Shown piece after piece: positions 8,463 to 35,100 of a stretch of 57,783 nucleotides of DNA. Origin of the DNA: Candidatus Brocadia sp. WS118 (GTDB lineage: Bacteria; Planctomycetota; Brocadiia; Brocadiales; Brocadiaceae). Made by a program: the position numbers and the translations under genes. Each line of letters opens with the position of its first letter. Within the stretch, counting starts at the first letter, position 1. The DNA is taken from the NCBI GenBank assembly GCA_007618135.1, contig PHFX01000011.1, positions 1 through 57,783 of the forward strand, read 5' to 3'. Under the pieces are notes generated by a model that worked only from the letters and a program-made list of their open reading frames with translations, was not told the origin of the DNA and searched no databases.

Positions 8463-8487
8463 TTGCCGAAGGCCTAATTAAAAGATC

Positions 8488-9592: not shown

Positions 9593-9614
9593 GGATATGT
9601 GCAACCTGTCCCAA

Positions 9615-9827: not shown

Positions 9828-9834
9828 GCTCAAC

Positions 9835-9863: not shown

Positions 9864-10447
9864 CGAGTAGAATTAATCTTTAGAAGAGAGAGGGTGGGCA
9901 ATGCCCACCCTACCAGAAACTACAAGGCAGCCCGTGAGTTATTCGACATCGACTTTAAACAGCAATTCGGCGGGATATTGGAAGAGGAAGAAAAGGCAAA
10001 GTGGCTCAGGGTATTCCACTCGTACATCATCGACAAGAAGATGGAACCCCTGGATGCTGTGGAGAAGATCAGGAAGGATTACGAGATAGCAGGGCAGGAA
10101 GAACCCCACCCTAACCCTCCCCGTAAACAGGGAGGGGAATCTCTCTCCCCCGTAAACGGGGGAGACAAAGAGGGGGTTGTAACCCGTGGTGAGCAGGGCA
10201 GAACCATCGATCCCACCGACAGCCTCTTTGCTGGCATCGGTAAATCCATCGTCCAGGGCACGACCTCATTTCCCAGGACATTCTGGGGTACTGGCGCCAT
10301 GCTGGAGGACATCACAAAGAGCATACCGCAGGCCATCCCCCTGGCCGCCTTCACCCAGATCATCTCTGAAGACTTTTTCAAGCGCCGGTACAAAGATGTG
10401 AAAGGCATAGAGGAACGCTTCCAGGCCAAAGGTGAAGGGTATAAGAA
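9855..10447 (+). pseudogene. Broken duplicate of the middle of the 1437-aa virion protein
   Basis: The frame from the ATG at 9855 encodes NYKAARELFDIDFKQQFGG and continues through KAKWLRVFHSYIIDKKMEPLD, DPTDSLFAGIGKS and FPRTFWGTGAM to GEGYKKY. This matches residues ~372-574 of the large protein encoded at 10911-15224. It lacks that protein's beginning and end. The first 20 codons come from the conserved block at 9855-9878 and a GGGTGGGCA palindrome (9892-9910). Near 10098-10200 the linker is a translation of intergenic palindromes. After 10447 it runs into the next gene out of frame. It is a duplication fragment and not a functional protein. Confidence 0.8.
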
Positions 10448-10908
10448 ATACAGCAATCGGCAGAGGCGCATCAATAGCAGGCACAGCCACATCAATCTTT
10501 GGCAATCTCCTGGCAGGCAGCCAGCAGGCAGCCGCTGCGCATACACAGGCCAAGCTCTCCAAACTTCAGGCAGAGGTTGAGGACGAAAGGGCAAGCGCCG
10601 AGGCCGGCGTCATCAGGCGCAAGGCCAGGGAACTCTTTTCCACCCAGAGGGCAGCTTACGCCGCATCGGGTGTGAGGCTTGAAGGCACCCCGCTTTTGGT
10701 GATGGCGGAGACGATCCGCGAGAGTGAAAGGGATATCTTGAATGTTTACAAGCAGGCAGACGCCAGGAAGCTTGGCTTCATGATGCAGGCAGGCATGTTT
10801 GAAAGCGCCGGCAAAGCAGCCAGGACAGCATCGTATTGGAACGCAGGCAGCACACTACTGACCGGCATTGGCAGTGGTATTGCCACGTGGGATAAATCTA
10901 AAACATAA
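10432..10908 (+). CDS. Truncated phage internal virion protein (T7 gp14-like type)
   Basis: The frame reads GTATSIFGNLLAGSQQAAAA, then a helical region with RRKARELFSTQRAAYAASGV, GTPLLVMAETIRESERDIL and a glycine/alanine-rich tail GSTLLTGIGSGIA. Alanine-rich sequence of this form, with AQRAAYAASGV-like and TLLTG-like motifs, is typical of small internal core proteins of podovirus-like phages. These travel inside the head and help DNA ejection. The 5' end has been replaced by the duplicate fragment at 9855-10447, so the listed GTG start is only the first usable codon. It ends two bases before the ATG of the large virion gene, as expected of a phage operon. Confidence 0.6.
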   Translation: MKGIRNTAIGRGASIAGTATSIFGNLLAGSQQAAAAHTQAKLSKLQAEVEDERASAEAGVIRRKARELFSTQRAAYAASGVRLEGTPLLVMAETIRESERDILNVYKQADARKLGFMMQAGMFESAGKAARTASYWNAGSTLLTGIGSGIATWDKSKT

Positions 10909-10910
10909 CT

Positions 10911-13900
10911 ATGGCCAAAATACCCCAATATCAACAATCGACATTGCCTCCCGGCGGCGAAGATTTCCCCGGCGGCAGCTTCGCCCCTATCTACTTCGCC
11001 GACGAGGTCGGCAACAGCATCAGACGTGCAGGCAATAGCCTTGCCAACCTCGGCAACACCCTTTCGGACGTATCGATCAGACAGCAAAAAGCGCAGGAGG
11101 CCATTGACATCAGCAATGCACTGGCCGATCTCCAGACAAGAATGGACGAGGCATACCAGAAACATAAACTTGAAGAACAAGACCCCGTTCTATTTGAATC
11201 TAAATTCAGAGAAAGCGCCAATGCCATTAACGAAGACGTGCTTGGCAGGCAGACAAAAAACGCAGCTCGTGGCCTCCAGCCATATATCAAAGAATTGTCT
11301 GTCAAATATCAGATGCGCGCAAAGGCGGACGCGATTGGCAAACAGGTAGATATCGGCCATGCCCAGCGGATCAGTTCAGCAGAACTTCTCAGTAATACTG
11401 CCCTGGAAGGGTATAAGCGGGGAGATTTTGAAGCAGGCTACGATGCCATCCAGAAATATGATGCCCTCCTGGAGCGGCAGAAACACACCGGCCTTATCGG
11501 TCTGAATGACGCCGCAGCCGAATCCCTCCGGTTCAGAAAACAGATTACCCGTGACGGCTACCTTCTGGCCATTCAGAATGACCCTGAGGGCGTTATGCAA
11601 AAGCTCCAGGACAGCCCAGGCCCCTTCCTTGACCCGCTGACACAATCAGAGCTTATTGGAACGGCCAGCAAGGCCATCAGGCAATTCAATGAGGCACAGC
11701 AAAAGGTTGAAAAGGACGCCTACACCAATTTCATGGAAACATCCGTACAGGATGCCTTTGGTGGTCGGCTTGGCATCGATGTGATAAATTCTCCTGACTT
11801 CAAGAGTAATTTCAAAGACCCGGCAGATTATGATAAGGTGGTTCGCGCCCTAAGCCAGCCCAAGATTGTTGATCCCGACCGATTCAATAATCTCATGTTT
11901 CGTATCAATGCTGATCCATATAGTCTTAGTGAGAGCGATATCGTTTCCGCAGAAGGCATATCCGTTTCAGACAAGACCAGGGCGCTGGAAGAACTCCAGC
12001 GCAATCAGGAGATCGCTAACAGGCCAAACTATAAACCAGCCCGTGAGTTATTTGACGTCGATTTCAAGCAGCAATTCGGAGATGATCTATCGGTTGATCC
12101 TGCGGAAGAAAAAGCGAAGTGGCTCAGGGTGTTCCACTCCTACATCATTGACAAGAAGATGGAGCCGCTTGACGCGGCTGAGAAGATTAAGAAGGATTAT
12201 GGGCTGCAGGAAAACCCACCCCCTGCCCCCTCCCAGGAGGGGAATGTTATGGAACCCACTCCGGAGGGGGACAATAGAAATCCCCTCCAGGAAGGGGGAG
12301 GGGTGGGTAAATCCGAAGCGCAAAATTCAAAATCCGAAACTGGAAACTCGAAACACGAAACTCGAAACACGAAACCCAACGTCGATCCCACCGACAGCCT
12401 CTTTGCAGGCATAGGCAAATCGGTAGTGCAAGGCACGACTGCATTCCCCAGGACATTCTGGGGCGCAGGAGCTATGGCGGAAGATATTATAAAAAGCGTA
12501 CCGCAGGCCATTCCCCTGGCAGCCTTCACCCAGATCGTCCCCGAAGACTTCTTTAAACGTAGGTATGAAGACGTAAAGGGCATAGAGGAAAGATTCCAGG
12601 CAAAGGGCGAAGGGTATAAAAAATATATCAATGGCGCCATCCGTACCATGTCTGAAATGTTGAGCCAGTACGCAGGCACGACAGGACTTGGCACACTGCC
12701 CTCTATGTCCGCCGGTGCGGGCATTGATAAATATCTGGGAGTCAGGAAAGAAGGCTACAGCATACCCCGTTCATTCGCGGCAGGCGGAATTACAACAGCT
12801 ACGGAATACGTCACAGAAAAGACCCCATTGGAAATCCTCGGACGTCCTGGTTTAAAATTCGTTGACCGGCTCATGAAGGGATTGGTAGCAGATATACCTG
12901 GCGAGGTCGAGGCCACCCTGGTGGAAATGACCACAGTAGATCAGGCTATATTGGGGAAGACTCATACACGGCAGGAGTATTTAGGTGCATTACTCGACAC
13001 GGCAGCCACAGCAGCTCTTACCACACTCGGCGCAACGGGGGTTGTTCAGCCTTTTGTCGCAGGGATACGGAGTGATGTGCAGCAAACAGAGCAAATAAAA
13101 CAAACGCCAGAGGCCCCTGCAGACCAGCAAACACAACAGACACCGGAAATAAAACAGCCGGCCAAGGAGGAGGTGCCGGGAGTAAAACCAGAAGAATATG
13201 CAACTGCCCCACAGTCTCAAATAGGAACCCAACAAACCACACCAACGAAAGAAGTTTATAAAGACTATAACGACTTTTTAGTAAAAAGAGAAGAGCAGGG
13301 CGAGTTGGCGAAAACAACGAAGCAGCAGAGAGAACAATTAATTACCGCATACAATGAGTTCCCTACCGGAAAAGAGTTTATTACCGATTTAGGAGAAAAG
13401 ATCTCGTTTGCTCTACCTGAAGGCAAAAGTAAAGAAGAGTATATTCATCATTTTTTAACCAAATTTAGTCCAGACAAAAAGAAGGAATTTTATTCAGGGA
13501 GATATCTGGAATTGGTTAGAGAGATTCCAGATACAATAAAAAATTATGACGAGAGAATCCTTGGTGAGATTAATGGGCAAGATAGAATATATTATACCAG
13601 GGAGTTTCCGGGTACTTCCAAAACACCCCATCATGTACTAGTTGTATCTGTTGATGCCAATGGAAAATTTGTAGGATGGACACACTTTGAGGCAAAAGAA
13701 AATTACAAACAAAAATTACTCAAAACAGAAAAAGAAGTTGTAAGCAAAAGGGGTTTGGTTGACTCAAAAGGGAATAAAGCAGATATAAGTTATGATGAAT
13801 ATGAAGGGAAAAAACGGAGTGCATTGTTCTACCTGGGGAACAATGCTTTGTCCGGACTTCGGCAATCCCAGGGATCTCCATCCAGACTAGAGAAAATTAT

Positions 13901-15224
13901 ACCACCATCTTCTGAGATTGTCAAGTCTGAATCTGTCAAGCCTGTTCCGGCAACACTTACCCCTGAGCAGTTCTCCCTCGTTAGCAATATGGAAGAGGAA
14001 CTGGCTATGGGCGAAGCACCCCAGCTACTCAAAAAAGAAACAGACGAAGCCATTGAGTACAAAAGGACGCAATCAACAAACCCCCAATACTTTGTCAAGC
14101 TGCATGATTACTACAAGGGCATATCCAAGGCTTATGTCAGGAACATTTTTAAGAAGGCAAAAAGCAACGAAACCCTCACCCCAAAACAAACGGAAGTCCT
14201 CCAAAGTTTACTTAATGCAAAAACGGAAGCAATAGAATCACAGAAATACTACGTAAGGGAACAACTGCCCAAGGTGACCGTCGGCGAATTAGACCTCAAC
14301 GTCGGCGACAAATTCAAAATCAATGGTGAAGAATTCCTGGTGTCGGAAATCGATAAAGAGGGAAACTACACCATTAAAGATGGCATTGCCTACGAGGTCG
14401 ATGTCTTTGACAAGATACCACAGCCAGACGAAGGCAGCATAGAAAGAGTTGGCGCGCCAACGGTCATGCCAGTCCTGCAAGGCCTCGTGGATACCGGCAA
14501 GCTATCATTAGAAGACGCATTGGAGATTGATGGCGTGGCAAAGCAAAACAATTGGTCAGAGGATACCGTAAAACAATTCTACAAAAGCGCCATAGGAGGC
14601 GTCGGCATCCAGAATAAAGACACGGCGTCCATAGAACAGATGCTCGTTACCGCAAAGGTTAAGGAGGCTGTTTATAAACAGAACGCAGAACAGTACAAAC
14701 AGGAACTTGCCGAGACTGAGGCACAAATTGAACGTCTTTACAAGCTTATCAAGATCGAAGGCGGCGCCCCGGGTAAGTATGAAACCGCCGCCAGCGACTT
14801 TATCAGGAACCTCGGTGATCTTAAAAAGCTTACGCCAGAAGAGATTATCCTCAAGGCGCAGGAAGAACTTGCCCTGAACCTCAACCGGCTTGATACCGGT
14901 ATGGATGTTAAGACGCTCATAGCGGCTACGGTGAAGACGATCAATGAGGCTGAGGGTATTTCGAAGGAAGTCGTCTCCCATGAGCAAACCGTTCAGGAGG
15001 CATTGAAAGAATTACCCGGCATATACAGCAAAGTTATAGGAATGAAACGAGGCAAGACACTTACAAGACCACAGCAACTGGCAGCCCGTATGCTGGGCAC
15101 GTCGCTCTTTGATGCGTTCAACAGGACAAAGCTCCAGGGCATGGCAAACCCTACGGACCAGAAACTCTACCAGCAGGCACAGGCTGTGTTCTATGAGATT
15201 GATGACGATTTGCATAATTATTGA
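10911..15224 (+). CDS. Large phage virion polyprotein with probable BECR-type nuclease domain
   Basis: This 1437-residue protein has an N-terminal helical virion-like part (residues 1-370, rich in coiled coil). Next is a segment duplicated upstream (about 372-574). Residues 435-490 form a linker that translates intergenic repeats in frame. A glutamine/threonine-rich linker follows at about 725-780. At about 860-935, YLELVREIPDTIKNYDERIL, GQDRIYYTREF, HHVLVVSVDANGKFVGWTHF resembles the phage Barnase-EndoU-ColicinE5/D-RelE (PBECR) nuclease family. This family is found in virion polyproteins that inject a nuclease with the DNA. Long helical segments close the protein. The C-terminus ends abruptly at repetitive DNA and may be truncated. 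No capsid, portal or terminase genes are nearby, so this is a prophage remnant. Confidence 0.65.
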   Translation: MAKIPQYQQSTLPPGGEDFPGGSFAPIYFADEVGNSIRRAGNSLANLGNTLSDVSIRQQKAQEAIDISNALADLQTRMDEAYQKHKLEEQDPVLFESKFRESANAINEDVLGRQTKNAARGLQPYIKELSVKYQMRAKADAIGKQVDIGHAQRISSAELLSNTALEGYKRGDFEAGYDAIQKYDALLERQKHTGLIGLNDAAAESLRFRKQITRDGYLLAIQNDPEGVMQKLQDSPGPFLDPLTQSELIGTASKAIRQFNEAQQKVEKDAYTNFMETSVQDAFGGRLGIDVINSPDFKSNFKDPADYDKVVRALSQPKIVDPDRFNNLMFRINADPYSLSESDIVSAEGISVSDKTRALEELQRNQEIANRPNYKPARELFDVDFKQQFGDDLSVDPAEEKAKWLRVFHSYIIDKKMEPLDAAEKIKKDYGLQENPPPAPSQEGNVMEPTPEGDNRNPLQEGGGVGKSEAQNSKSETGNSKHETRNTKPNVDPTDSLFAGIGKSVVQGTTAFPRTFWGAGAMAEDIIKSVPQAIPLAAFTQIVPEDFFKRRYEDVKGIEERFQAKGEGYKKYINGAIRTMSEMLSQYAGTTGLGTLPSMSAGAGIDKYLGVRKEGYSIPRSFAAGGITTATEYVTEKTPLEILGRPGLKFVDRLMKGLVADIPGEVEATLVEMTTVDQAILGKTHTRQEYLGALLDTAATAALTTLGATGVVQPFVAGIRSDVQQTEQIKQTPEAPADQQTQQTPEIKQPAKEEVPGVKPEEYATAPQSQIGTQQTTPTKEVYKDYNDFLVKREEQGELAKTTKQQREQLITAYNEFPTGKEFITDLGEKISFALPEGKSKEEYIHHFLTKFSPDKKKEFYSGRYLELVREIPDTIKNYDERILGEINGQDRIYYTREFPGTSKTPHHVLVVSVDANGKFVGWTHFEAKENYKQKLLKTEKEVVSKRGLVDSKGNKADISYDEYEGKKRSALFYLGNNALSGLRQSQGSPSRLEKIIPPSSEIVKSESVKPVPATLTPEQFSLVSNMEEELAMGEAPQLLKKETDEAIEYKRTQSTNPQYFVKLHDYYKGISKAYVRNIFKKAKSNETLTPKQTEVLQSLLNAKTEAIESQKYYVREQLPKVTVGELDLNVGDKFKINGEEFLVSEIDKEGNYTIKDGIAYEVDVFDKIPQPDEGSIERVGAPTVMPVLQGLVDTGKLSLEDALEIDGVAKQNNWSEDTVKQFYKSAIGGVGIQNKDTASIEQMLVTAKVKEAVYKQNAEQYKQELAETEAQIERLYKLIKIEGGAPGKYETAASDFIRNLGDLKKLTPEEIILKAQEELALNLNRLDTGMDVKTLIAATVKTINEAEGISKEVVSHEQTVQEALKELPGIYSKVIGMKRGKTLTRPQQLAARMLGTSLFDAFNRTKLQGMANPTDQKLYQQAQAVFYEIDDDLHNY

Positions 15225-15443
15225 GTTAAAGAGTTTGAGAGTTAAGGAGTTGAAGAGTTATGGAGATAGTTCATAAAACCTTGTATCATTTAGGAACTCC
15301 TTTTCAGTGTCTTTTCATAGGTTATCCATATTTCTGTCTTTTCATGTATCATAAAATAAGTGTCAGTAATCAGTGTCGATGTCAGTGTCCTCCGGCAGGT
15401 GACAGTTGCCGGTTGAGAGTGGCTAACGGGTTTTCCTTAAAAA
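15225..15443. repeat. R3 repeat copy a, with short tandem GAGTTAAAGAGTTT-like run
   Basis: Directly after the virion gene is a degenerate run of GAGTTnnAGAG units (15223-15260). R3 copy a covers about 15325-15425. It has a TCTGTCTTTTCA-AT-rich part, then GTCAGTGTC direct repeats and a CCGGCA/TGCCGG hairpin. It lies 3' of the minus-strand nucleotidyltransferase gene. Confidence 0.6.
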
Positions 15444-16019
15444 TTATTTTTCTTCCTCCATCAGTTGTTTCCATGGCGCCTCAAATCTCTCCTTAATTTC
15501 AGGAGTCTCTAACATGGCAGAGAATTTATTAAGCCGTATTCTGATATAATTTATATCAAGCCTTCGCCCCTGTCTTAAGATTATTCCCTCTATGTCACCA
15601 AGGTCCTGATGCCTTCCGGCAACCGCTTTGTATATGATCAGATCCTCTGCTGAACATATTTTTACTACATATCCCTTTTCTAACTTACATCCAACTGCCC
15701 GTTTTATAACTTCTTCCTCGTAACCAGGGATACCAAGGGAAATATCTATTTCATAGCCATCTTTAGTTTTCACTAAACATATCCTGTTCTTAAGGGCAAA
15801 TTCAAGGACGTCTGTAATACGCGGTGAGAAACAAGTCAGCATCTTTTTTATAACCTTCTCCTCATCTCTTGAATTTACAAGGATAGTGACATCAACGTCA
15901 CGCGTAAATCTTGGTTCCCCCCACCACTGAAGGGCGATTCCGCCTATAAGAACATACGGTATACCTTCTCGTGTGAGAAACTCATGAATCTCCATTATGG
16001 CTTTTACCTGAGGAGTCAT
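15444..16019 (-). CDS. Nucleotidyltransferase-fold protein (MNT/AbiEii-like), possible TA toxin component
   Basis: The 191-residue product has VLIGGIALQWWGEPRFTRDVDVTILV at residues ~22-47, which holds the GG, the following helix and the DxD pair of the polymerase-beta-like nucleotidyltransferase fold. EIDISLGIPGYEEEV supplies the third acidic residue, and SAEDLIIYKAVAGRHQDLGDI is usual in AbiEii-related proteins. It overlaps its 80-codon partner by four bases (ATGA), so the two are translationally coupled like a toxin-antitoxin pair. Members of this fold modify tRNA or proteins by nucleotide transfer, but the target here is unknown. R3 repeats lie on the downstream side. Confidence 0.75.
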   Translation of the reverse strand: MTPQVKAIMEIHEFLTREGIPYVLIGGIALQWWGEPRFTRDVDVTILVNSRDEEKVIKKMLTCFSPRITDVLEFALKNRICLVKTKDGYEIDISLGIPGYEEEVIKRAVGCKLEKGYVVKICSAEDLIIYKAVAGRHQDLGDIEGIILRQGRRLDINYIRIRLNKFSAMLETPEIKERFEAPWKQLMEEEK

Positions 16020-16258
16020 CTTTTAACCCCATCAAGAAGATTCCTTCTTTTCAGCAGGAATTCTATCTTCTTTTTCTGTAGCTTTTCAATGTCTTCACTT
16101 TTTACACCCTCTTCAGCTAATTCGCAAAGTGCGATGTATTCGCGCAGCGAATCTTTTGTTGTTAAATGTGCAAGTCGCCTTTTCTTTTCCTCAGCTATCA
16201 GCTCATTTGCCTTTCTGTAACCTTTAAGAAGACTTACCAGGGCATTCTTCTGTATCAT
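16016..16258 (-). CDS. Small basic helical partner of the nucleotidyltransferase
   Basis: The 80-residue, lysine/arginine/glutamate-rich protein is probably all alpha-helical. It has no recognised domain. The ATG at 16256-16258 is preceded by GGAGG with four-base spacing. Its stop overlaps the start of the downstream nucleotidyltransferase gene. Position, size and coupling suggest an antitoxin or accessory subunit, but it is not the HEPN protein usually paired with MNT toxins: no RxxxxH motif is present. Confidence 0.6.
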   Translation of the reverse strand: MIQKNALVSLLKGYRKANELIAEEKKRRLAHLTTKDSLREYIALCELAEEGVKSEDIEKLQKKKIEFLLKRRNLLDGVKR

Positions 16259-16295
16259 TTTACCTCCATCACCCTATGTCCGGTGGTATAACTTT

Positions 16296-16440
16296 TCATC
16301 CTTTACTTTCTCTCAGTTTTACAAATGCTTGCATGCCGCTGTTCCTTCGAACAGCTTGATTTAAAACCCTTGTCTCAACACCGTAAAGCTCTGCCAATCC
16401 TCTATCTAGAGGGAGATATTTACTATGCCGTCCTTTTTTT
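16296..16440 (-). pseudogene. ORF6N-domain relic with internal deletion
   Basis: The minus strand encodes LDRGLAELYGVETRVLNQAV, the hallmark N-terminus of ORF6N (KilA-N-related phage antirepressor) domains. It then passes directly to MQAFVKLRESKG and a stop. In intact proteins MRAFVKLRE occurs some tens of residues later, so the middle has been deleted. There is no start codon. It marks former phage or mobile DNA in the toxin-antitoxin region. Confidence 0.6.
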
Positions 16441-16502
16441 TATGTGCCAAATTGGTACCTTAAAAGCCCAATGTATTCTTTTTCGTTAATTGAAACATAA
16501 AG

Positions 16503-16660
16503 TCATCTATAGTCTTTCCACACGTTACCCATAGCTCTGTCTTTTCAATTATCATAAATTAGTGTCGGTGTCAGTGAACAGTGTTGATTGCCTCCGGCAG
16601 TTGACAGTTGCCGGTTGACAGTGTCAGTAGTCAGTGTCAGTTATCCGTTGTCAGATGTCA
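16503..16660. repeat. R3 repeat copy b
   Basis: The ATAGTCTTTCCACACGTTAC segment begins it and TCTGTCTTTTCAATTATC follows. GTCAGTG direct repeats and the CCGGCAGTTGACAGTTGCCGG hairpin region (about 16590-16617) complete it. It lies 3' of vapC. Confidence 0.7.
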
Positions 16661-16738
16661 GCAGCCAGAAAATTTCTGTCATCGGGTATCTGTTGTCAGT
16701 CTTCTATGCCTCCCTAACTCTTTCACTCTACAACTCAG

Positions 16739-17146
16739 TTACGGTTCTTCTCTTTTTATACCTTCAACTGAATCAAAATCTCTGTCATAAGAATATATCT
16801 CGTTATAATCATAATGTTTCATGCAAACTGCATTATAGGCATCGATATAATCTATATTTCTCCTACCGTAAAGGACAAGGGCGTCTGCAATAATGTCTTT
16901 GTCGGGAATATACAGGTTTTCAGTATTAACTATAATAGAAACCATTCCAACAACATCGGCTTTTGGTACCTTGTAATAGGAGAGAAGCGTCCATATTAAT
17001 TCGGCAATTACCATTCCAGAGGTGGCAAGGGCTATTTTGCCTTCCATTGCCATTCTAAAGATGTCTTTACAATTCGCATACTTTGACGGGTCATCTTTGG
17101 TTAAATATCTGAGGAATATATTGGTATCAACAAACTTTTTCATCAT
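16739..17146 (-). CDS. vapC: PIN-domain ribonuclease toxin (VapC family)
   Basis: The 135-residue PIN domain starts KKFVDTNIFLRYLTKDDP, where the first aspartate and asparagine of the active site lie. It has ELIWTLLSYY with the conserved glutamate at about 49. IDYIDAYNAV supplies the next aspartate and YSYDRDFDSV the last acidic cluster. All four acidic positions of the Mg2+-dependent RNase site are therefore present, so the toxin looks functional. The upstream gene at 17151-17408 is its AbrB-type antitoxin, four bases away and co-transcribed. VapC enzymes cut tRNA or rRNA, but the target cannot be read from sequence. R3 copy b follows its stop. Confidence 0.9.
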   Translation of the reverse strand: MMKKFVDTNIFLRYLTKDDPSKYANCKDIFRMAMEGKIALATSGMVIAELIWTLLSYYKVPKADVVGMVSIIVNTENLYIPDKDIIADALVLYGRRNIDYIDAYNAVCMKHYDYNEIYSYDRDFDSVEGIKREEP

Positions 17147-17150
17147 CAGC

Positions 17151-17408
17151 CTACTTCCCCGTAGCTATCTTTTTGGCAACCCTTTTTTTAACATCTTCTC
17201 TGAGTTTTTTGAAATCTATTGGTTTTTCTTTATCGGCTATTCGCACAGCGCCGCCAATATCAAGGATGTTGCCCCTGAGAGGTTTGATAACAGCATGGTC
17301 ACCCTCAACAACGATAATAACCTTTTCAGAAGGCTTCAGGTTTAAGGCATTCCTTACCTCCTTTGGTATTGTCATCTGTCCTTTTGATGTTAGTATTGCA
17401 ATTGGCAT
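17151..17408 (-). CDS. vapB: AbrB/SpoVT-type antitoxin (VapB family)
   Basis: The 85-residue protein begins MPIAILTSKGQMTIPKEVRN, the swapped-hairpin AbrB DNA-binding fold, with LNLKPSEKVIIVVEGDHAVI completing it. The C-terminal tail (KEKPIDFKKLREDVKKRVAK) is expected to wrap around the VapC toxin. The start has a good AGGAGG ribosome-binding site. Antitoxins of this type bind their own promoter with the toxin and repress the pair. Confidence 0.9.
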   Translation of the reverse strand: MPIAILTSKGQMTIPKEVRNALNLKPSEKVIIVVEGDHAVIKPLRGNILDIGGAVRIADKEKPIDFKKLREDVKKRVAKKIATGK

Positions 17409-17557
17409 ATTTTCCTCCTATTAATGTTTTTTCTTACATTATAACAATATTATTACTTATCTACAAATTTATGAATTAGAAAACAGAGTTTTTAAAAAAC
17501 ACCAACCATAATTGTAACCGGTGATACGCCCAGCGCACGCAATGCTGAGTCGTCACC
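17409..17557. other. Intergenic sequence upstream of vapBC
   Basis: This is the AT-rich promoter region of vapBC, followed by an unassigned 17490-17560 stretch. The latter reads GDDSALRALGVSPVTIM on the minus strand and may be the tail of a lost gene. No firm feature is present. Confidence 0.3.
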
Positions 17558-27477: not shown

Positions 27478-27556
27478 ACGAGTCGGAATGCGTAGCGCGG
27501 GTGGTTTATCCCCCGCCACAGGCCGACCACAAGGGATCGGCGCTACGTTTTTTGCC
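27478..27556. repeat. MITE core without its terminal repeats
   Basis: The cgtagcgcgggtggttta / ccgaccacaagggatcgg palindrome of the MITE core is present. The TIR sequence is absent on both sides. It separates two minus-strand genes. Confidence 0.6.
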
Positions 27557-27585: not shown

Positions 27586-29037
27586 CTATTTGCTTTTCGG
27601 TTTTAGTCGCGCCCGTACTCTCTTCTTTTCCAGCGCAGCTAATCGCCGCAGGGTATTTGCCTCGCTCTGTATATCTACGTATTTCTTGAGCAAATTTGAC
27701 CACGAGAGATAAGTAAAGCCGTTGGGATTCATATGCGCCAGACCCTTTCTGACCAGAAAGGCATCGTTTTCCCACATATACAGGAAGTCCTTTTCAATCC
27801 TGCTTGGATTTCCGTTCTTCGCCCAAAACTCCCCGTAAAAACCGCCCAGGAGATCGGGATACTTTTCCGTAACGGAGGCAGGGGCTTTTGGCCTGTTTTC
27901 AGGCATAGGATAGAGTACGCCCTCTTCATAAAGAGATTTAATGGTGGCATAGGCATCGCTCACGTATTGGAAAACGGAATCCGAGGCATTATCCATAGAG
28001 GTAAGGTAATCACGGGAAAATCGCGGAGAATGACACTTTACACAGACTTCAATCCACGCCTCACGCCGTGCCATTAACTCCTTGCTGTTTTTGATATAAT
28101 CTGTTGGCTTGACCCCCTTCAAGACATTGTCATAAAACAAGACATCTCCCTCGCCCATAATGGCCTTCCTGACCATATTATGGGAATACTGCCCTTTATA
28201 ATACATATGGCAGGATTGACAGGTGGGAGAGATATAATTTGCGTCCTTGAGTTGTTTGCTCCAATCCCAGGTATGTCCTTCAATAAAATAGATCGAGCCG
28301 TGCTTGGAGTCCCGGTAATATTCAATATCAGGGTGGTCAGGTCCGTTATGACATGTTTGGCATGCCTCCGGCCTCCTAGCCTCTGAGGCCTTGAAGGCGT
28401 GCCGGGTATGACAGCTATCGCACTTGTGCTGGATGCTGTGGCACATATCGCAGCCCTGAACAATATTCTTATCTACCGCTGCCCAGACATCCACGTCCAG
28501 GTTGGCATCATAAGCCTTTGCATGGCTTTCTCTGCCTGGTTTCCAGTCAGGAATACCGTATTGCTTCTCTGATTCAAACTCCTGGTATTCTTGTTTATGA
28601 CATTCACCGCACATGGCGGAACTAGGCATAACGAGCTCTTTTCCATGATCCAGCTTCTCCGCTCCCACCTTGCCATGGCAATCGATACATCCCACCTTCG
28701 TGAGTTTCCTCCCCAGGGTTTTTTCTATTTCGGCCAATTTCTCTTTCTGGTAGTCCAGCAGCTTATCCAGATTCGCATGGCTGCTTTCTGCCCATGCCTT
28801 GACCAACCCCGGATTTAACGCCTTATGACAGAGTGTGCACTCATCCGCAGCATAGACCCCTTTTGGTTCTTCCGGCGGTGAATAAAAGTAGTCAGGCGCC
28901 CAGTACCGCTGGGTGGGGATTGGTTTCCAGAATTCCCCGTACGGGCCTACTCCTTTATCGAGTTTTTGAGCCTGTATTACACCACTAAAAACACCAAAGA
29001 GCATTGCCACTCCAACGAACGACAAAATTGCCTTCAT
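27586..29037 (-). CDS. Octaheme hydroxylamine oxidoreductase-like cytochrome c
   Basis: The 483-residue product begins with a Sec signal peptide (MKAILSFVGVAMLFGVFSGV, IQAQ). It has exactly eight CxxCH motifs: CTLCH (residue 67), CIDCH, CGECH, CDMCH, CDSCH, CQTCH, CQSCH and CVKCH. The SCHTRHAFKASEARRPEAC and NGPDHPDIEYYRDSKHGSIY segments are characteristic of the HAO family. It belongs in the periplasm or anammoxosome. The region that in hydroxylamine-oxidising enzymes carries the tyrosine cross-linked to the catalytic heme reads HMNPNGFTYLSW here. The usual PDY appears lost, which would favour a reductive or NO/nitrite-linked role. That alignment is from memory. The start was chosen at the ATG preceding the signal peptide, with GAGG just upstream. 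Confidence 0.9.
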   Translation of the reverse strand: MKAILSFVGVAMLFGVFSGVIQAQKLDKGVGPYGEFWKPIPTQRYWAPDYFYSPPEEPKGVYAADECTLCHKALNPGLVKAWAESSHANLDKLLDYQKEKLAEIEKTLGRKLTKVGCIDCHGKVGAEKLDHGKELVMPSSAMCGECHKQEYQEFESEKQYGIPDWKPGRESHAKAYDANLDVDVWAAVDKNIVQGCDMCHSIQHKCDSCHTRHAFKASEARRPEACQTCHNGPDHPDIEYYRDSKHGSIYFIEGHTWDWSKQLKDANYISPTCQSCHMYYKGQYSHNMVRKAIMGEGDVLFYDNVLKGVKPTDYIKNSKELMARREAWIEVCVKCHSPRFSRDYLTSMDNASDSVFQYVSDAYATIKSLYEEGVLYPMPENRPKAPASVTEKYPDLLGGFYGEFWAKNGNPSRIEKDFLYMWENDAFLVRKGLAHMNPNGFTYLSWSNLLKKYVDIQSEANTLRRLAALEKKRVRARLKPKSK

Positions 29038-29207
29038 GTGCCTCTTCCTCCCCATAAGTGCATGTTTAGCAGATAATTGTCCGGTACGTAAATGTCATTT
29101 ATTATACCATAGCGCAGCACAGTCTCAACCAAATTACCTGTAAGTCTTTACCATTTTTCCCGCAGACCGTTTGTATCTCCAGCACCTACATTCACAAACT
29201 CTTCTTT
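29038..29207. other. Upstream region of the HAO-like gene
   Basis: This is AT-rich sequence with no gene. It must hold the promoter of the HAO-like gene, but no confident -35/-10 pair was singled out. Confidence 0.4.
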
Positions 29208-29403
29208 GAAAACATGTAACAATTTAGCTTTTTGAAAAATCCTTCCATTGTAGGTGATCCACAAGAAACGGAATACGTAGCGCGGGTGGTTTATCCCCCG
29301 CCAATATTGCTAACGAATGGAGCCGACCACGCTTGTCCTCGAATAGTATCGGGGAAGGGATCGGCGCTACATTTTCCAAAATACTAAAATGTTGCGAAAA
29401 TAT
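29208..29403. mobile_element. MITE copy M5, expanded core
   Basis: The element is 29216-29395. The ends GTAACAATTTAGCTTTTTG and CAAAATACTAAAATGTTGC are inverted copies. The core has an extra ~30 bases compared with M4 and M6. The flanks are GAAAACAT and GAAAATAT (7 of 8 equal). It ends only 16 bases before the orphan CRISPR repeat. Confidence 0.75.
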
Positions 29404-29411: not shown

Positions 29412-29447
29412 GTTGTGGCTTGCGGGCAGGCATTTGTGTGGTACAAT
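29412..29447 (+). CRISPR. Orphan CRISPR repeat, one mismatch to the array
   Basis: The 36-base unit equals the array repeat except for one A-to-G change in its middle (TGCGGGCAGG instead of TGCGGACAGG). It is 688 bases from the first array repeat, with a phage-like block between them. A single degenerate base is common in the terminal repeat of an array. Its promoter elements (TTGCGG, TACAAT) are intact. Confidence 0.9.
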
Positions 29448-29759
29448 CTCACTTTTGAGCGGACTGTCGGGGATCATGGGAAAACTGACGCCAAAACAGA
29501 AACCCGAACCACGGGACATGAAACCTGTGGAGATTGGATCGAAGATATGTGCGTCATCATCTCCCATGGAGACATCTCCAGACGGGACGCCATCCTCTGG
29601 GGATACACCCTTGCCGAATGCGAACCCTATCTCAGGGCTTGCATTCGTAACATAACGTTCCGTGAGGCCGTGCTGGCGTTTCTGGAGATTAGGGATCAGG
29701 GGTCAGGTGTCGGCAGGGTAGAGAATTTGAAATCCGAAATCGATCGGCGAATATTGTAA
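29448..29759 (+). pseudogene. 5'-truncated phage-type gene abutting the orphan repeat
   Basis: The frame is open from within the CRISPR repeat. It gives LTFERTVGDHGKTDAKTETR, then CGDWIEDMCVIISHGDISRR, DAILWGYTLAECEPYLRAC and NITFREAVLAFLEIRDQ. This is a compact, coding-like helical sequence of phage type, but no name can be given. It lacks its own start: the reading frame simply continues out of the repeat. After ~29690 the sequence is low quality (GSGVGRVENLKSE). The block's 3' part (29738-30100) is homologous to 9520-9878. Confidence 0.5.
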
Positions 29760-29831
29760 GGGGAAAGACCTGGCTGAGTGCAGAAACTATTGGAAAGGAG
29801 CTTTAGGGCGAGTATGCGCTACGTGCTCGAA

Positions 29832-30050
29832 TTAAGAAGTTGCAAAGAATTGAGTAAGGGTAATAAAAATTACCAGGACGATGAGCGCTATCACTGGCGG
29901 TTCTTTGTATAAATTTTTTGCGGAAAAGGATATATCAGGCTTTGGCTGTGGTTTGTGATCCAGCAAAGCACATTTGCCAAATGCGCGTTTGCATTGCAGG
30001 TGTGAATGAAGTGTCAGCAAAAAAGCAATAAAACCTAAAATGGCATCCAT
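29832..30050 (-). CDS. Small two-TM membrane protein (copy B), next to the CRISPR array
   Basis: The 72-residue protein begins MDAILGFIAFLLTL. A loop with SHLQCKRAFGKCALLDHKPQ follows, then a second helix (ALIVLVIFITLTQFF). It is a clear paralogue of 9615-9827, with the CKRAFxxC cysteine pair kept. The promoter is TTGACT (30080-30085), 17 bases, then TAAAAT (30057-30062). The ATG lies six bases after the -10 box, so the mRNA should have essentially no leader. It is divergent from the CRISPR array, which begins 86 bases upstream of its start codon. The function is unknown. Confidence 0.7.
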   Translation of the reverse strand: MDAILGFIAFLLTLHSHLQCKRAFGKCALLDHKPQPKPDISFSAKNLYKEPPVIALIVLVIFITLTQFFATS

Positions 30051-30056
30051 GCGAAA

Positions 30057-30085
30057 ATTTTAACACAAAAATATCCATGAGTCAA
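30057..30085 (-). promoter_or_regulatory. Promoter of small TM gene B
   Basis: TTGACT and TAAAAT are separated by 17 bases on the minus strand. Spacing and position match the promoter of copy A. Confidence 0.7.
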
Positions 30086-30135
30086 CGAGTAGAATTAATC
30101 ATTAAGTGTGTTAACGATACCCGCAAGACGCTTGA

Positions 30136-30637
30136 GTTGTGGCTTGCGGACAGGCATTTGTGTGGTACAATTCGTAACCCATGTGTTGCTGCAAGAAACT
30201 AGTTGTGGCTTGCGGACAGGCATTTGTGTGGTACAATTGTTCAGCCGCAACAATCGGGCTGATTCGGGGTTGTGGCTTGCGGACAGGCATTTGTGTGGTA
30301 CAATGAGAAGAACGGATTTACCTTGCGGCGAATGGTTGTGGCTTGCGGACAGGCATTTGTGTGGTACAATGTATTCCTGCTCTATACGACTCGTGCCTTT
30401 GGTTGTGGCTTGCGGACAGGCATTTGTGTGGTACAATTTTCGGCAAGTCTGGTATTTACCCACTTCTTGTTGTGGCTTGCGGACAGGCATTTGTGTGGTA
30501 CAATACTATAACTGATTTTGTGTCTGAGTCCGTAGGTTGTGGCTTGCGGACAGGCATTTGTGTGGTACAATTCGAGATCATTTGCAGCTACAGTATTTGA
30601 AGTTGTGGCTTGCGGACAGGCATTTGTGTGGTACAAT
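30136..30637 (+). CRISPR. Type II-C CRISPR array, 8 repeats, 7 spacers
   Basis: Eight identical 36-base repeats start at 30136, 30202, 30269, 30335, 30402, 30469, 30536 and 30602. Each begins GTTGTGGCTTGCGG and ends GTGTGGTACAAT. Spacers are 30 or 31 bases and all different. None was seen to match elsewhere in the window. The repeat has the form of the Neisseria II-C repeat (GTTGTAG start, TACAAT end). The sense strand for crRNA is plus, judged from pairing with the tracrRNA at 34986-35100. The array is therefore transcribed towards the cas genes, which are on the minus strand. Each repeat contains TTGCGG and TACAAT 16 bases apart, a possible promoter. Confidence 0.97.
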
Positions 30638-30683
30638 CCCTCTCCGTAACCTGTTGTATTTCCTTGTGATGTGCCCGAACGAT

Positions 30684-31013
30684 TCAGAAAAAACTGAGTT
30701 GTTTGGGCGCCTTTTCTGTTGCCTTTCGCGTTTTTCCATTGAAAACCTTCATACGTTCAAATTGCTTGTCTGTGATTTTTAACAGCCTTACTTCTCCGTC
30801 TTCCGGCAGAGATGCCTTTACCCGGTTTTCGTGAACCGCGGCATTTTCCTCGCTTGGGGTGTGGCGTGCGTAAACGGAAAATTGCAGCATAGTAAAACCG
30901 TCATTCAATAATTCCTCCCGAAATTCATGATAAGCCTTTCGCGCATGCTTCGTATCAGTGGGTAAATCGAACATGACGATTATCCACATACTCCGATAAC
31001 CTCCAAAGCTCAT
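30684..31013 (-). CDS. cas2: CRISPR-associated endonuclease Cas2
   Basis: The 109-residue protein has the Cas2 start YRSMWIIVMFDLPTDTKHAR, where the aspartate after MF is the conserved one. It also has FTMLQFSVYARH and GEVRLLKITDKQFERM. With Cas1 it forms the complex that inserts new spacers. Its start overlaps the end of cas1 by four bases. The array ends 46 bases beyond its stop. Translation might also begin at the internal MWIIVMF. Confidence 0.95.
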   Translation of the reverse strand: MSFGGYRSMWIIVMFDLPTDTKHARKAYHEFREELLNDGFTMLQFSVYARHTPSEENAAVHENRVKASLPEDGEVRLLKITDKQFERMKVFNGKTRKATEKAPKQLSFF

Positions 31014-31894
31014 AATCTAGGTATCTCCACACGCTTATGCTCGCCGCAGATTACCTTTCGCACACTTGCGGCGTAATGATGTAACGAGGTCATGAAAGGG
31101 AGCCGTTGGCCATTCATGACACAATCTGCGCTCAAGGTTTCTAACAACGCCCGTTTGTTTTCCGGTGTCAGCGCCGGTTCGCCCTGATGTCTTTTCCACA
31201 GTTCATATACCTTCATATCAACCGCAGGACGCAGCGGTTCAACCAGATCATCGGCAAGGCAAAAGCTGTTATACTGGTTGTGGTGGTGCAGTCCCAGGGA
31301 GGGATGAAGGCCCGTACTGACAATTGCGCGGGCAACTGACGCGCGTATCACTGCATACCCATAGTTAAGAAGACGATTAATGCCAGGCGCATCAAAGTCA
31401 CGGCGGAATGCCGGGCCATAGAGCCTTTGCCAGTAGATGCGGGATGCCTGAGCCTCAACATTTTCAGTGTCCCCGCTTTTGACCCTCTTGGCATAAGCCG
31501 GGAGTGGGTTGCCGTCACCTGTGGCCTTGAGCAATACCTTTGCCTGCTCACGAATCTTTGCCTGTACGATTGCCTGCCACAGACGCTTGCGGGTGGGTTC
31601 GGTAACCTGCGCCTGCTGCGCGATAGTCCTGCTGTGGAGGCTGTTTCCTTCCAGCGGTAAGAGGATAGCGCACGGCAGATGTTTCTCACTGCAGACTAAC
31701 AACGCGACATTATTTTCAGCACAAGCCGCAAGAAGCCCTTGGGTATGAGTGATCTGAGGATGGTCTAAAATAAGAACGCCCATATCCTCTACAGGAACTG
31801 TAGCTGAGTCAAACCCTTCGCGTTCAACCACCATTTGCCGATTTTTCAGGGAAAGCCGCGCAGGATTGCTGATTTCAACGATTCGTTTAATCAT
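31010..31894 (-). CDS. cas1: CRISPR-associated integrase Cas1
   Basis: The 294-residue type II Cas1 has ENVEAQASRIYWQRLYG, which supplies the first conserved glutamate, and STGLHPSLGLHHHNQYN with the catalytic histidine. FCLADDLVEPLRPAVDMKVY provides the second acidic pair. The length is normal. It overlaps cas9 by eight bases at its start and cas2 by four at its end, so the three genes form one coupled operon. It catalyses integration of spacers at the leader end of the array. Confidence 0.96.
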   Translation of the reverse strand: MIKRIVEISNPARLSLKNRQMVVEREGFDSATVPVEDMGVLILDHPQITHTQGLLAACAENNVALLVCSEKHLPCAILLPLEGNSLHSRTIAQQAQVTEPTRKRLWQAIVQAKIREQAKVLLKATGDGNPLPAYAKRVKSGDTENVEAQASRIYWQRLYGPAFRRDFDAPGINRLLNYGYAVIRASVARAIVSTGLHPSLGLHHHNQYNSFCLADDLVEPLRPAVDMKVYELWKRHQGEPALTPENKRALLETLSADCVMNGQRLPFMTSLHHYAASVRKVICGEHKRVEIPRL

Positions 31895-34800
31895 TTTTAC
31901 AGGCTATAATATTACCTAAAACATCAACTATTACTTTGCGGTATTCAAAAGCATTCGGCATTTTGCTGGTTGATTCATCAAGTGTAGCCGCGGCATGGCT
32001 TAAATAAAAAATCTGTGTATTTGAAGAAATTTTTTGCACCCTGAAATATTGTCTAATATTATCCTTGTCAAGCATCAACATGTCATTGATGGCAAGGCTC
32101 ATAACAAATTCCCAGCATTCATCAAATATTGTTCCTTCTTTTTCCCATGGGGGTAATTTTTGCACTATCGGAATTTTGTTGTTGCGGGCGCGTCGTGCAG
32201 CTTCTGCCGTTGTTACAACAATGCCGTCACGCTTTCCGGTTTTTGTATGCTTAATAATTTCTATGTGATGATTGTTTCCAAACGGATAGTATTTATATGC
32301 TTGTCCAGATTCATTTTTAACTGCAAGCATGTTGGATTTCAAAGTGTTATCCACAATTCTAACACTCTTAATGGGCGTTTTACCATTCTTATGCAACAAT
32401 GGATATTCTGAGTTGCCAAAGGCTTTTTTTATCAAGTCTTTTGCTTGTTTATCCGTAATTTTGTATCGCGACTTTTTAGGTATTGCTTCATCAATAGCCT
32501 TTCTAATTTCTGGCTCAAATTTCTCAAGTCGTGCGATAACAAGTTCTTTGACATACTTGTCACGAATTTTTAGTATTTGAGCTAAAGTTATATCCACACC
32601 CAAAGGCTTACGATACACAAAGCATTCTTCATGCTCACTAAACCCGTACGCAGTCCCTTCATGCAGAGCGCCACTTATCTTGTGGCTCGGCGCATGAGAT
32701 ACGATTATATGCCTGACTTTTTTATCCACGTCTTCATAGAACGATGACCATGGTTTCTCAAGATGAAAACCGCTTTCACTCAGGGCTACACCACTTTGTG
32801 CAGAGAGACTCGAAAGTTTCTGAAACAAGCTTGTGGACGTCAGGGCAATAATGATAGCGTCAATAGCGTGATGCCGGTGATCGGCGCGATTTTTCTCCAG
32901 GGAGCCATCCTCAGACAAAATCCTGCTAAGATTCCAACGGTGGCGCAGAGCGGCGGTTGCTTCACCTTTGCTGATCTCAATTCTCACACCGATTTGTTGT
33001 AAGTATTTTTTTACCTCAACACAGATATAACGCGTATCGTTTAATTGACGCTCGACAAATTTATCGGTGTCAATCTCTTTTTGCTCAAAGCGACGCCTCT
33101 TTGGCCAGGGAAGTGTTTTAATCCGCTGGAGAATGGCGGGGTACTTTTGTGCATCGGTATGGTAGGCTTCGTAAGGCGTTCTATTGTGTTTGGTGGCACG
33201 GTTTTCATATGCCATGCACAGCGTTTTGTTCATATACGAATCATCAAGCGAGCGGCTGTACGGCAGGATATGCTCAACGTCCACCTCCGGTGAAAACAAC
33301 TTTTCGCGATTGATAATAGCGCCGGTGTAAGGGCATGTCATGCTGCATTCTATCCACATATTATATTTCTGAATATCTGCCCTGGTTGGGTTTTGAATCT
33401 CAAACTCGTTTTGTAAAATATCCCTTGCTTTATCATTGATTTTTTCATTTTCCTTTTGCTTTTTTTGCCATTCTTCCTTTTGCCGCCGGGTCAGCTTCAT
33501 ATCTCGCGCCATTTCTATGCGAATGACTGTGGGTTTGCCGTAACGGTGGATAATTGCGTTGACGACCTTTCGTGTCTCATACAATGCCTTTTGCACCACC
33601 GGATTTCGCAGATAAGGCGGCGCTCCAAGTTTTTCTCCTGCGGCCTGCTTATTAAGCATGCTGTGGTTATAGCCTGCGGCATTGCACGCCTTATCATAAG
33701 GCATTCCTTGCTCAAGATGCGGAATGATTTTCCGTATGGCCTTGAGAGAGAGTCGTGCATAACCTGGCTCCAGTTCTGTTTTAGCCAGTTCCTCAGCAGT
33801 TTCTGAGTCGAAACCCCATTCGGACTTCATACGGTTTAGAAAGCCTCGCTCGTTATCAATGGTAAGCATGTCGGTAATAAGGTCGTTTTGCTTTGCCAGC
33901 TTCATTTCATCCCAATGTTTTTTCAATATGGAGCGCAATGCGAAAGCCGTACGACTGCCGATAAGTTCTTTCTTTTTTCCTTCTTCGAGATTAAAAATCT
34001 CTCCTTTGTGTAGTCTAAGCGCGGTGCGCGCCTTGTTCCAGCTTAAGGTCTTCTGTCTTTCCAATAGCTCCAGGAGTTTTCCCCGTTCATTGTTTGTGGG
34101 AATGCGGTATTCACGGGTAACTGGATTCTTGATAGTAAGATTATTCAGGTCCTGCAGTATTCTGAATCGTTGCACTTCAAGCAATGCCCGACTTGCTCTC
34201 TTTTTTAACGGCTCTAAGGTGCATTTGCCTACCAGATATTTTTGAACTTTGAGTGGACGTTGAAAGAAGATGGCCTTGTGAATGGATACCTTAAGTGTCT
34301 GATTTAGCAAATCGGGATAATGTTTTTGCTGTTCCTGCCAAACCAGTTCAAATTCTTCCTGATACATAGAGCGGTCTGTATAGCGGTTACGCTTGGTTGG
34401 CTGGCTTGCGAGGTATTCCCCCAGTGAGCGACAATCAGCATTCTTTATCTCCTGATGCAGAGAATTGATGGAGATTTTTACCTCACCATCGTCTTTGGAT
34501 GACACCTTTCTATTGCTTTGAAAACCACGCCTATGGGCAAGGTGATATAACACACGTCCAAATTCATAAGGTGTAAGCTTATTATACAGCGCCTTTTTCC
34601 TGAGCTGGTAAGGGTCGAAAGATTTATTGTCGGCGAATAATTTCTCCCGCTCGTCGACGTTGTTTGGAAGCAAGCCGGTTTTTAATAAAATATTGAGCAC
34701 ACTACTGAGCCTCATCTTACGCCTTACCACAAGCCTGCGTGCAGCACGTGCGGCGCGACGTGCCTGATTCTTTGGGATTCTTGACTTAGGATCTACGGCC

Positions 34801-34931
34801 TCCTGAAATATACGCGTGCCGCATGCAATCAAACCAGTTGGCTTTAAATTATCATCATGCCCAACTACCGCCCAACCGATGGAATTGGTTCCCATGTCAA
34901 TGCCAAGGGTATAATTAGGTATTTTCTCCAT
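31887..34931 (-). CDS. cas9: Compact type II-C Cas9
   Basis: This RNA-guided DNA endonuclease has 1014 residues with the start used here. RuvC-I is YTLGIDMGTNSIGWAVVG (Asp12). An arginine-rich bridge helix follows at about residues 51-75 (KNQARRAARAARRLVVRRKM). RuvC-II is VIRIEMARDMK (Glu473). The HNH domain has CPYTG at 533 and VDVEHILPYSRSLDDS with His554 and a following NRATKHN. RuvC-III is HRHHAIDAIIIALTS (687-692). All catalytic residues are present. The ATG at 34929-34931 follows GGAGG by five bases. An ATG seven codons upstream overlaps the tracrRNA -35 box and is less likely. Size and gene order cas9-cas1-cas2 without csn2 or cas4 assign subtype II-C. Confidence 0.97.
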   Translation of the reverse strand: MEKIPNYTLGIDMGTNSIGWAVVGHDDNLKPTGLIACGTRIFQEAVDPKSRIPKNQARRAARAARRLVVRRKMRLSSVLNILLKTGLLPNNVDEREKLFADNKSFDPYQLRKKALYNKLTPYEFGRVLYHLAHRRGFQSNRKVSSKDDGEVKISINSLHQEIKNADCRSLGEYLASQPTKRNRYTDRSMYQEEFELVWQEQQKHYPDLLNQTLKVSIHKAIFFQRPLKVQKYLVGKCTLEPLKKRASRALLEVQRFRILQDLNNLTIKNPVTREYRIPTNNERGKLLELLERQKTLSWNKARTALRLHKGEIFNLEEGKKKELIGSRTAFALRSILKKHWDEMKLAKQNDLITDMLTIDNERGFLNRMKSEWGFDSETAEELAKTELEPGYARLSLKAIRKIIPHLEQGMPYDKACNAAGYNHSMLNKQAAGEKLGAPPYLRNPVVQKALYETRKVVNAIIHRYGKPTVIRIEMARDMKLTRRQKEEWQKKQKENEKINDKARDILQNEFEIQNPTRADIQKYNMWIECSMTCPYTGAIINREKLFSPEVDVEHILPYSRSLDDSYMNKTLCMAYENRATKHNRTPYEAYHTDAQKYPAILQRIKTLPWPKRRRFEQKEIDTDKFVERQLNDTRYICVEVKKYLQQIGVRIEISKGEATAALRHRWNLSRILSEDGSLEKNRADHRHHAIDAIIIALTSTSLFQKLSSLSAQSGVALSESGFHLEKPWSSFYEDVDKKVRHIIVSHAPSHKISGALHEGTAYGFSEHEECFVYRKPLGVDITLAQILKIRDKYVKELVIARLEKFEPEIRKAIDEAIPKKSRYKITDKQAKDLIKKAFGNSEYPLLHKNGKTPIKSVRIVDNTLKSNMLAVKNESGQAYKYYPFGNNHHIEIIKHTKTGKRDGIVVTTAEAARRARNNKIPIVQKLPPWEKEGTIFDECWEFVMSLAINDMLMLDKDNIRQYFRVQKISSNTQIFYLSHAAATLDESTSKMPNAFEYRKVIVDVLGNIIACKND

Positions 34932-34951
34932 TATTTCCTCCCATTTTTCCA

Positions 34952-34979
34952 TTGACTTTTTCCTGGATTATGTTTTAAT
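34952..34979 (+). promoter_or_regulatory. Promoter of the tracrRNA
   Basis: TTGACT (34952-34957) and TTTAAT (34974-34979) lie 16 bases apart, with a TGn extension before the -10 box. Transcription would start near 34986, one base before the anti-repeat. Confidence 0.7.
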
Positions 34980-34985
34980 AGCAAA

Positions 34986-35100
34986 CATTGTACCACACAA
35001 ATGCCTGCGCTGCTTTCTACAATAAGAAGAAAACTTCGCAGGATAGCCCCTAAATAAGGGGTAAACCTACCAAGCCTCTCGGAAACGAGGGGCTTTTTTT
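34986..35100 (+). ncRNA. tracrRNA
   Basis: The anti-repeat starts at 34987. Its first 21 bases, ATTGTACCACAC to GCCTG, are perfectly complementary to the 3' part of the CRISPR repeat. After a bulge, CTACAAT (35018-35024) pairs with the repeat's 5' GTTGTGG using two wobbles. A short hairpin GAAG/CTTC (35026-35037) follows, then a CCCCT/AGGGG hairpin (about 35047-35060) and a rho-independent terminator. This is the architecture of the Neisseria II-C tracrRNA. It is divergent from cas9, with only 54 bases between the cas9 start and the anti-repeat. Confidence 0.92.
35073..35100 (+). terminator. Rho-independent terminator of the tracrRNA
   Basis: The stem AGCCTCTCG/CGAGGGGCT closes on a GAAA loop and is followed by seven or more T. 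Confidence 0.9.

Follow-up and report, generated by a model that had tools for sequence, protein, structure and literature searches.

An oversized phage-derived segment between the first two repeats of a type II-C CRISPR array in Candidatus Brocadia and its counterparts in related genomes

The stretch of DNA analysed here, referred to as the window, comprises the 57,783 nucleotides of contig PHFX01000011.1 of the anammox bacterium Candidatus Brocadia sp. WS118, whose genome (G000; the contig is C114) is a draft metagenome-assembled genome (MAG) of 5.04 Mb in 299 contigs. The window carries a type II-C locus of clustered regularly interspaced short palindromic repeats (CRISPR), consisting of cas9-cas1-cas2 on the minus strand, an array and a predicted trans-activating CRISPR RNA (tracrRNA). 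Between an outlying repeat of this locus, R0, and the first repeat of the regular array, R1, we found 688 bp of contiguous phage DNA that meets both repeats at their edges. Long phage segments were also found beside R0 in relatives and in an array of another CRISPR type, and suggest that virus fragments the size of genes can be incorporated into CRISPR arrays. Relatives are cited by label, G007 being a Candidatus Brocadia MAG and G025 a Candidatus Kuenenia MAG.

The type II-C locus and its first repeat

The locus comprises the following features, in window coordinates:

29412..29447, + strand: orphan repeat R0, probably the leader-distal and oldest repeat, with the ancestral G at position 15
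29448..30135, + strand: phage segment ("giant spacer") between R0 and R1, 688 bp
30136..30637, + strand: CRISPR array R1-R8, eight identical 36-nt repeats, all with A at position 15, and seven ordinary spacers of 30-31 bp
30671..30710, strand not assigned: hairpin between the last repeat and cas2, kept in relatives; terminator in the acquisition-side flank
30684..31013, - strand: cas2 (TIGR01573, PDLC02068; Cas2_II according to PADLOC)
31010..31894, - strand: cas1 of type II (NMENI; TIGR03639, 291.7 bits against a cut-off of 120)
31887..34952, - strand: cas9, 1021 aa, HNH and RuvC (TIGR01865, 711 bits; Pfam HNH_4 and RuvC_III)
34984..35100, + strand: predicted tracrRNA (anti-repeat, stems, terminator)

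The neighbouring genes are one of the DinB family and one for a multihaem cytochrome (27586-29055), with R0 upstream of the latter. Its assignment to type II-C follows from a Cas9 with both HNH and RuvC domains, from an operon with type II Cas1 and Cas2 and neither csn2 nor cas4, and from a predicted tracrRNA whose anti-repeat pairs with the first 24 nt of the repeat at -22 to -27 kcal/mol. As in the systems of the Neisseria and Campylobacter kind, cas9-cas1-cas2 are the only cas genes, the tracrRNA adjoins cas9, the 36-nt repeats end in TGnTACAAT and the first repeat is probably the oldest. The difference is that one "spacer" measures 688 bp here and 3,625 bp in G005, where 30 bp would be usual, and contains several gene pieces.

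A search of the whole genome that allowed up to three mismatches returned only nine copies of the repeat, R0 and R1-R8, all on one strand, and zero copies of a reversed control pattern; nine near-identical copies of 36 bases are not due to chance. The preliminary description of this DNA had reported an orphan repeat one base off the array repeat and 688 bases away from it, and both the coordinates and the repeat search bear this out: the start of R1 at 30136 lies exactly 688 bases beyond R0, and the single difference is at position 15, where R0 has G and the array A. A G stands at this position in every repeat of the G005 array as well as in the repeats of G025, G027 and G044. Moreover, the anti-repeat of the tracrRNA matches the G form better (22 nt perfect, against 21 for the A form), and its predicted duplex is more stable with R0 than with the array repeat (-27.1 against -21.9 kcal/mol). 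It follows that R0 has retained the ancestral base and that R1-R8 were copied from a mutated repeat. Type II-C arrays are reported to gain spacers via the last repeat, the first repeat being the oldest (PMC12080349), and a G in R0 with an A common to R1-R8 is consistent with such growth next to cas2. We take R0 to be the first-formed repeat, at the leader-distal end of the array, and no stray copy. In this respect it resembles the extraneous first repeat of type II-C arrays, which is likewise the first and oldest and deviates from the array consensus; here, however, the ancestral base was kept in R0 while the array changed, and R0 is followed by phage DNA instead of a spacer. The 3' end of R0, TGGTACAAT, when read by eye, fits an extended -10 promoter, but was not listed by a sigma-70 scan, which requires a -35 element.

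A palindrome-like dispersed repeat (GTAGCGCGGGTGGTTTATCCCCCGCC ... GGGATCGGCGCTAC) flanks genes at window positions 27484-27551, 29269-29400 and 2371-2416, and one of its copies stops just short of R0.

Content and origin of the 688-bp segment

The segment between R0 and R1 contains four features:

29448..29759, + strand: 3' part of a siphophage tail-assembly chaperone region (G-like frame 29449-29655, overlapping GT-like frame 29448-29759), matching the G015 prophage at L107:103-576 and the frame overlapping behind it
29746..29835, + strand: short conserved frame GEYCKGKDLAECRNYWKGALGRVCATCSN, with the same element in G009, G015, G022 and at window 9522-9590
29832..30050, - strand: open reading frame (ORF) of 72 aa, by its sequence a small membrane protein, with related DNA in G009, G002 and at window 9640-9829
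30077..30135, + strand: start of a phage tape-measure gene (20 codons), cut off exactly by R1; the full gene (L107:967-2889) has tape-measure PHROG matches

The phage-type frame and the small membrane gene named in the preliminary description are thus both present, together with the start of the tape-measure gene; the array does not begin 35 bases after the phage block, as had been stated, since phage DNA extends to R1. A reading frame had also been described as continuing out of the repeat. The repeat is indeed devoid of a stop in that frame, but the phage gene is really cut at the repeat edge, and we rejected the continuing frame as meaningful because it merely reflects the lack of a stop in the repeat.

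The segment is collinear with the region from the chaperone genes to the tape-measure start in the prophage of G015 (66% over 594 of the 688 nt, reaching the right border), which possesses terminase, portal, scaffold, decoration, tape-measure and tail genes. It also matches the virus contig IMGVR_UViG_2706794884_000001, under which a related phage of G010 with terminase, portal, head protease and antirepressor genes is catalogued; among 50,697 phage records it had zero matches. The block is one contiguous stretch of siphophage late-gene DNA. Related patches elsewhere in G000 are confined to a phage remnant (window 9522-9882), the rest of the genome holds no tape-measure gene, and a resident prophage was rejected as the source of the block.

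Neither a mobility gene nor an inverted repeat was detected within 29448-30135, so that the block does not qualify as an inserted prophage or mobile element. With arrays interrupted by insertion sequences (IS) it shares the presence of foreign DNA within the array; it differs from them in having no transposase or terminal repeats, in consisting of phage structural genes and in having both ends at repeat edges. Like a spacer, it is foreign DNA exactly bounded by two repeats, but it lacks the fixed length of about 30 bp, as do the corresponding segments of G005 (3,625 bp) and G009 (763 bp). The term giant spacer therefore describes the block, although at 688 bp it is not an ordinary spacer; it is an oversized representative of an otherwise known kind of element.

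Counterparts in related genomes and the borders of the segments

Four congeners (G002, G005, G007 and G010) have R0 at this position, again upstream of the cytochrome gene, and three of them carry different phage DNA beside it. In G005, a 3,625-bp piece of a single phage gene adjoins R0 and ends exactly at R1 of a 16-repeat array; this gene is related, via its copy in G002, to the "internal virion protein" family PHROG 6651, and the protein had zero matches in IMG/VR with either a single sequence or a profile as query. In G002, the same gene follows R0 from the same starting codon, and in G007 another part of it; neither genome has an array nearby. The fourth congener, G010, has a lone degenerate repeat without phage DNA after it. 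According to the preliminary description, an orphan repeat without an array in relatives would speak against its reading. Such a repeat does exist in G010, and R0 has no array beside it in G002 and G007, but the cas1 and tracr remnants in G010 and a tracr anti-repeat remnant at the DinB gene of G002 show that the array was lost in these two genomes. Between the cytochrome and DinB genes of G009 and G001 (283 and 530 bp) there is no CRISPR locus, and the 1.84 kb between them in G008 contain no recognisable repeats.

That phage reads were joined to the array during metagenome assembly is hardly credible. The genome is a draft of 299 contigs and short repeats can mislead assemblers, but G007 shows this arrangement with other phage DNA, as do G005 and G002, which are assembled in three contigs and one contig, respectively. 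We regard it as highly improbable, too, that R0 is a phage attachment site, or a solitary repeat brought by a phage, at which the array arose or was captured. R0 does lie beside phage DNA in four genomes, and RNA anti-CRISPRs in the form of solitary CRISPR repeats have been described in phages (Racr; PMC10651486); with these, R0 shares the arrangement of a single repeat adjoining phage DNA. Nevertheless, the repeat had no exact match among the 2.9 million viral contigs of IMG/VR, and R0 belongs to the host: it occupies the orthologous position in five genomes, one of which (G010) has no phage DNA behind it. R0 is kept whichever phage piece comes next, and the pieces are different structural genes, with neither an integrase nor attachment functions. 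The origin at a phage attachment region, one of three mechanisms offered in the preliminary description, was accordingly abandoned.

Long segments were also encountered outside type II-C. G009 has a type I-B locus (Cas1b; L040 5357-10444) with a 29-nt repeat and ordinary spacers of 35-37 nt close to the cas genes. Between its older, partly degenerate repeats stand segments of about 0.5, 1.1, 0.76 and 2.0 kb, the first and third of which represent the same chaperone/tape-measure region as the block in G000. The third (763 bp) is bounded by repeats on both sides and the fourth contains an IS-like element. This genome was found via the block itself, so that long segments from other phage regions may be missed. 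In G001 (L070 1-4300), an array with a third type of repeat ends in a truncated repeat joined directly to 3.8 kb of the internal-virion gene. Given R0 with differing phage DNA in the relatives and the type I-B segments of G009, the arrangement is recurrent and neither a one-off insertion nor an attachment site; the finding is real and broader than had been assumed.

The borders of the segments coincide with the repeats. On the right side of the G000 block, homology of about 75-85% to four homologues (two in G009, one each in G010 and G015) persists up to about the final base before R1 and breaks off there; in G005, homology to G002 and G001 stops at the last base before R1. On the left side, homology reaches the 3' edge of R0 in G000 (compared with G010), in G005 and G002 (compared with window 11840) and in G007 (compared with window 12954). 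At either end, the block joins its repeat with a precision of a base or two; altogether, three segments have exact repeat borders on both sides and two more have them on the left. No transposon lies inside the three cleanly bounded segments; the splitting of an array by insertion, as had been suggested earlier, would accordingly be possible only in the form of recombination through spacers, considered below. An ordinary insertion followed by decay, either by illegitimate recombination beside R0 or by movement of the array next to a prophage remnant, would make the edge repeats incidental. Fragments of these phages are scattered in anammox genomes (including window 9247-15224), the fourth long segment of G009 holds the IS-like element, and the phage gene of G001 merely adjoins the array end, all of which would fit this explanation; however, the exact borders speak against it, as do the lone repeats of G027 and G044, beside which no phage DNA was recognised, and we consider it improbable.

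The sequences following the right ends in the phage relatives are alike. They read AGAAGTA, GGAAGTC, GGAAGTT and GGAAATT for G000 and GGAGAATG and GGAAAACG for G005, and resemble the flank of the protospacer of an ordinary G005 spacer, s8 (AGAAAATT); an RGARR-like start is common to all, a motif read post hoc from a small sample. From position 31 onward of the left ends there is no such agreement (GGGAAAAC in G000, GCGACCCG in G005 and GAAGCATT in G007). A shared motif on the right and discordant sequences on the left suggest that each segment has one normally chosen end, adjacent to a putative protospacer adjacent motif (PAM).

How the segments may have entered the arrays

For the mechanism, capture by the CRISPR integrase and recombination between spacers and phage DNA have to be weighed against each other; we judge capture most likely and recombination its main rival. 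On balance we hold it to be slightly more likely than not that the block is a giant spacer placed in the R0-R1 slot through capture of a long phage fragment by Cas1-Cas2, a mechanism that we infer. Of the earlier proposals, an aberrantly large acquired segment is the one that fits best with exact borders and with recurrence involving different phage pieces. With new spacers entering at the cas2 side and R0 as the oldest repeat, Cas1-Cas2 would have joined a long phage fragment, in place of a 30-bp prespacer, to both repeat edges; the PAM-side end (right, towards R1) would have been chosen normally and the other left untrimmed to length. Repair would then have completed the joint, giving a repeat on each side of the long fragment. 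Since only the last approximately 24 nt before the repeat form the guide in type II-C, the right end of the block could still give a working CRISPR RNA, and the block might have been tolerated for this reason. Autoimmunity from this end is not expected because it is followed by a repeat and not by a PAM. The same event would have taken place with other phage DNA in G005 (3,625 bp), probably in G002 and G007, and in the type I-B array of G009 (763 bp, repeats at both ends). One-ended integration by Cas1-Cas2, completable by repair, has been described in vitro (PMC8390005). Completion of such half-integrated DNA would likewise yield a long insert and a duplicated repeat, but those intermediates were obtained with short protospacers, and a kilobase-sized product was not found described.

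Several points weigh against capture. Cas1-Cas2 normally measures length, and a literature search of incomplete coverage found no published capture of hundreds to thousands of base pairs (nor any work on anammox CRISPR arrays). The PAM rests on one good ordinary protospacer, read after the fact. The long segments observed are confined to the old end of arrays, and G000 is a draft MAG, although G005 and G002, in their three contigs and one contig, show the same arrangement. Finally, G002 and G005 share the left phage coordinate while their phage copies are 75-83% identical in aligned parts, and a shared coordinate is not predicted by random untrimmed ends. From the codon comparison of these copies, the values for the C-terminal part of G005 and for G002 with the window were used.

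The shared coordinate is better accounted for by homologous recombination, as if one spacer had set the coordinate for different phage variants. A former arrangement R0-S1-R-S2-R1 would have undergone a double crossover with phage DNA, by which the inner repeat was exchanged for the phage stretch from S1 to S2. This would explain the exact borders at both ends equally well; arrays with several spacers that target a single phage gene do exist here, and the bases that follow the first 30 of the G000 block, GGGAAAAC, resemble the right-end motif. However, 30 bp of homology are short for RecA. If the PAM is RGARR-like, it is missing from its predicted place after the first 30 bases in both G005 (GCGACCCG) and G007 (GAAGCATT), and the first 30 bases of G005 and G002 diverge like the rest, so that no shared S1 is visible. 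We rate recombination through spacers as rather unlikely. The shared left coordinate would also be explained by an ancestral giant segment that was later converted by other phages.

As a generalization, which we advance tentatively and with rather less than even confidence, anammox bacteria might possess CRISPR integrases, of types II-C and I-B, that capture gene-sized phage fragments (up to 3.6 kb), each as a single spacer whose PAM-side end is correct. The length of a spacer is commonly regarded as set by the geometry of Cas1-Cas2. If true, the repeated occurrence, in two CRISPR types, of phage segments of 0.7-3.6 kb with exact borders would mean either that the integrase accepts gene-sized DNA in nature or that spacers are sites of recombination with phage DNA. 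On either reading, phage genes would have a route into chromosomes through the immune system. Should capture be correct, arrays would store long phage DNA besides 30-bp tags, usable both as a source of guides and as a recombination substrate. Array finders that expect regular spacing would miss such segments and list "orphan" repeats instead.

Ordinary spacers and further observations at these loci

When 41 ordinary spacers were compared with 33 genomes of the family, good protospacers were obtained only for G005 s8 and G025 s0. The phage gene of the G005 segment is also targeted by ordinary spacers, one from the II-C array and four from a type I array, a point in favour of capture. The latter (L120/L121) has about 136 repeats, and its spacers s81, s104, s105 and s110 have matches in the internal-virion gene of G002 or G001; no match of these four to the resident giant segment was found. 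No outlying type I repeats occur near the second copy of the internal-virion gene in G005, and the trailing end of the large type I array of G002 has no long gap. One of the long segments of G009 encodes small proteins of secreted type.

The phage remnant on the contig of the window (9247-15224) consists of a tape-measure start fragment joined to pieces of a large "internal virion"-type gene, among them an ORF of 1437 aa (10911-15224) with a weak PBECR2 nuclease-like match. It contains DNA of both kinds of phage that stand at the arrays of G000 and G005, and no CRISPR repeats flank it within window 8400-17500.

Complete or partial II-C loci with the array reduced to a single repeat beside cas2 were observed in two other Planctomycetes, G044 (L047 4439) and G027 (L048 2423-2458). 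The CRISPR site of G002 appears to have been split by a rearrangement, since 261 kb separate the tracr-side remnant, next to DinB (L068 7402), from R0 and the cytochrome gene (L067 695). In G002 and G005 (L038 8621-8667, L037 12670-12721), a short reversed tape-measure start fragment lies 23-28 bp to the cytochrome side of R0; it is about 94% identical between the two, whereas 4-fold sites of the hosts are only 55% identical, and it could represent a recent exchange or the trace of another, lost long segment. The Cas9 proteins of G005 (L037 2864-6703) and G000 (window 31887-34952) share only about 30% identity, while Cas1 and Cas2 at the same site are 86 and 95% identical, which suggests that the effector gene was swapped inside a conserved adaptation module.
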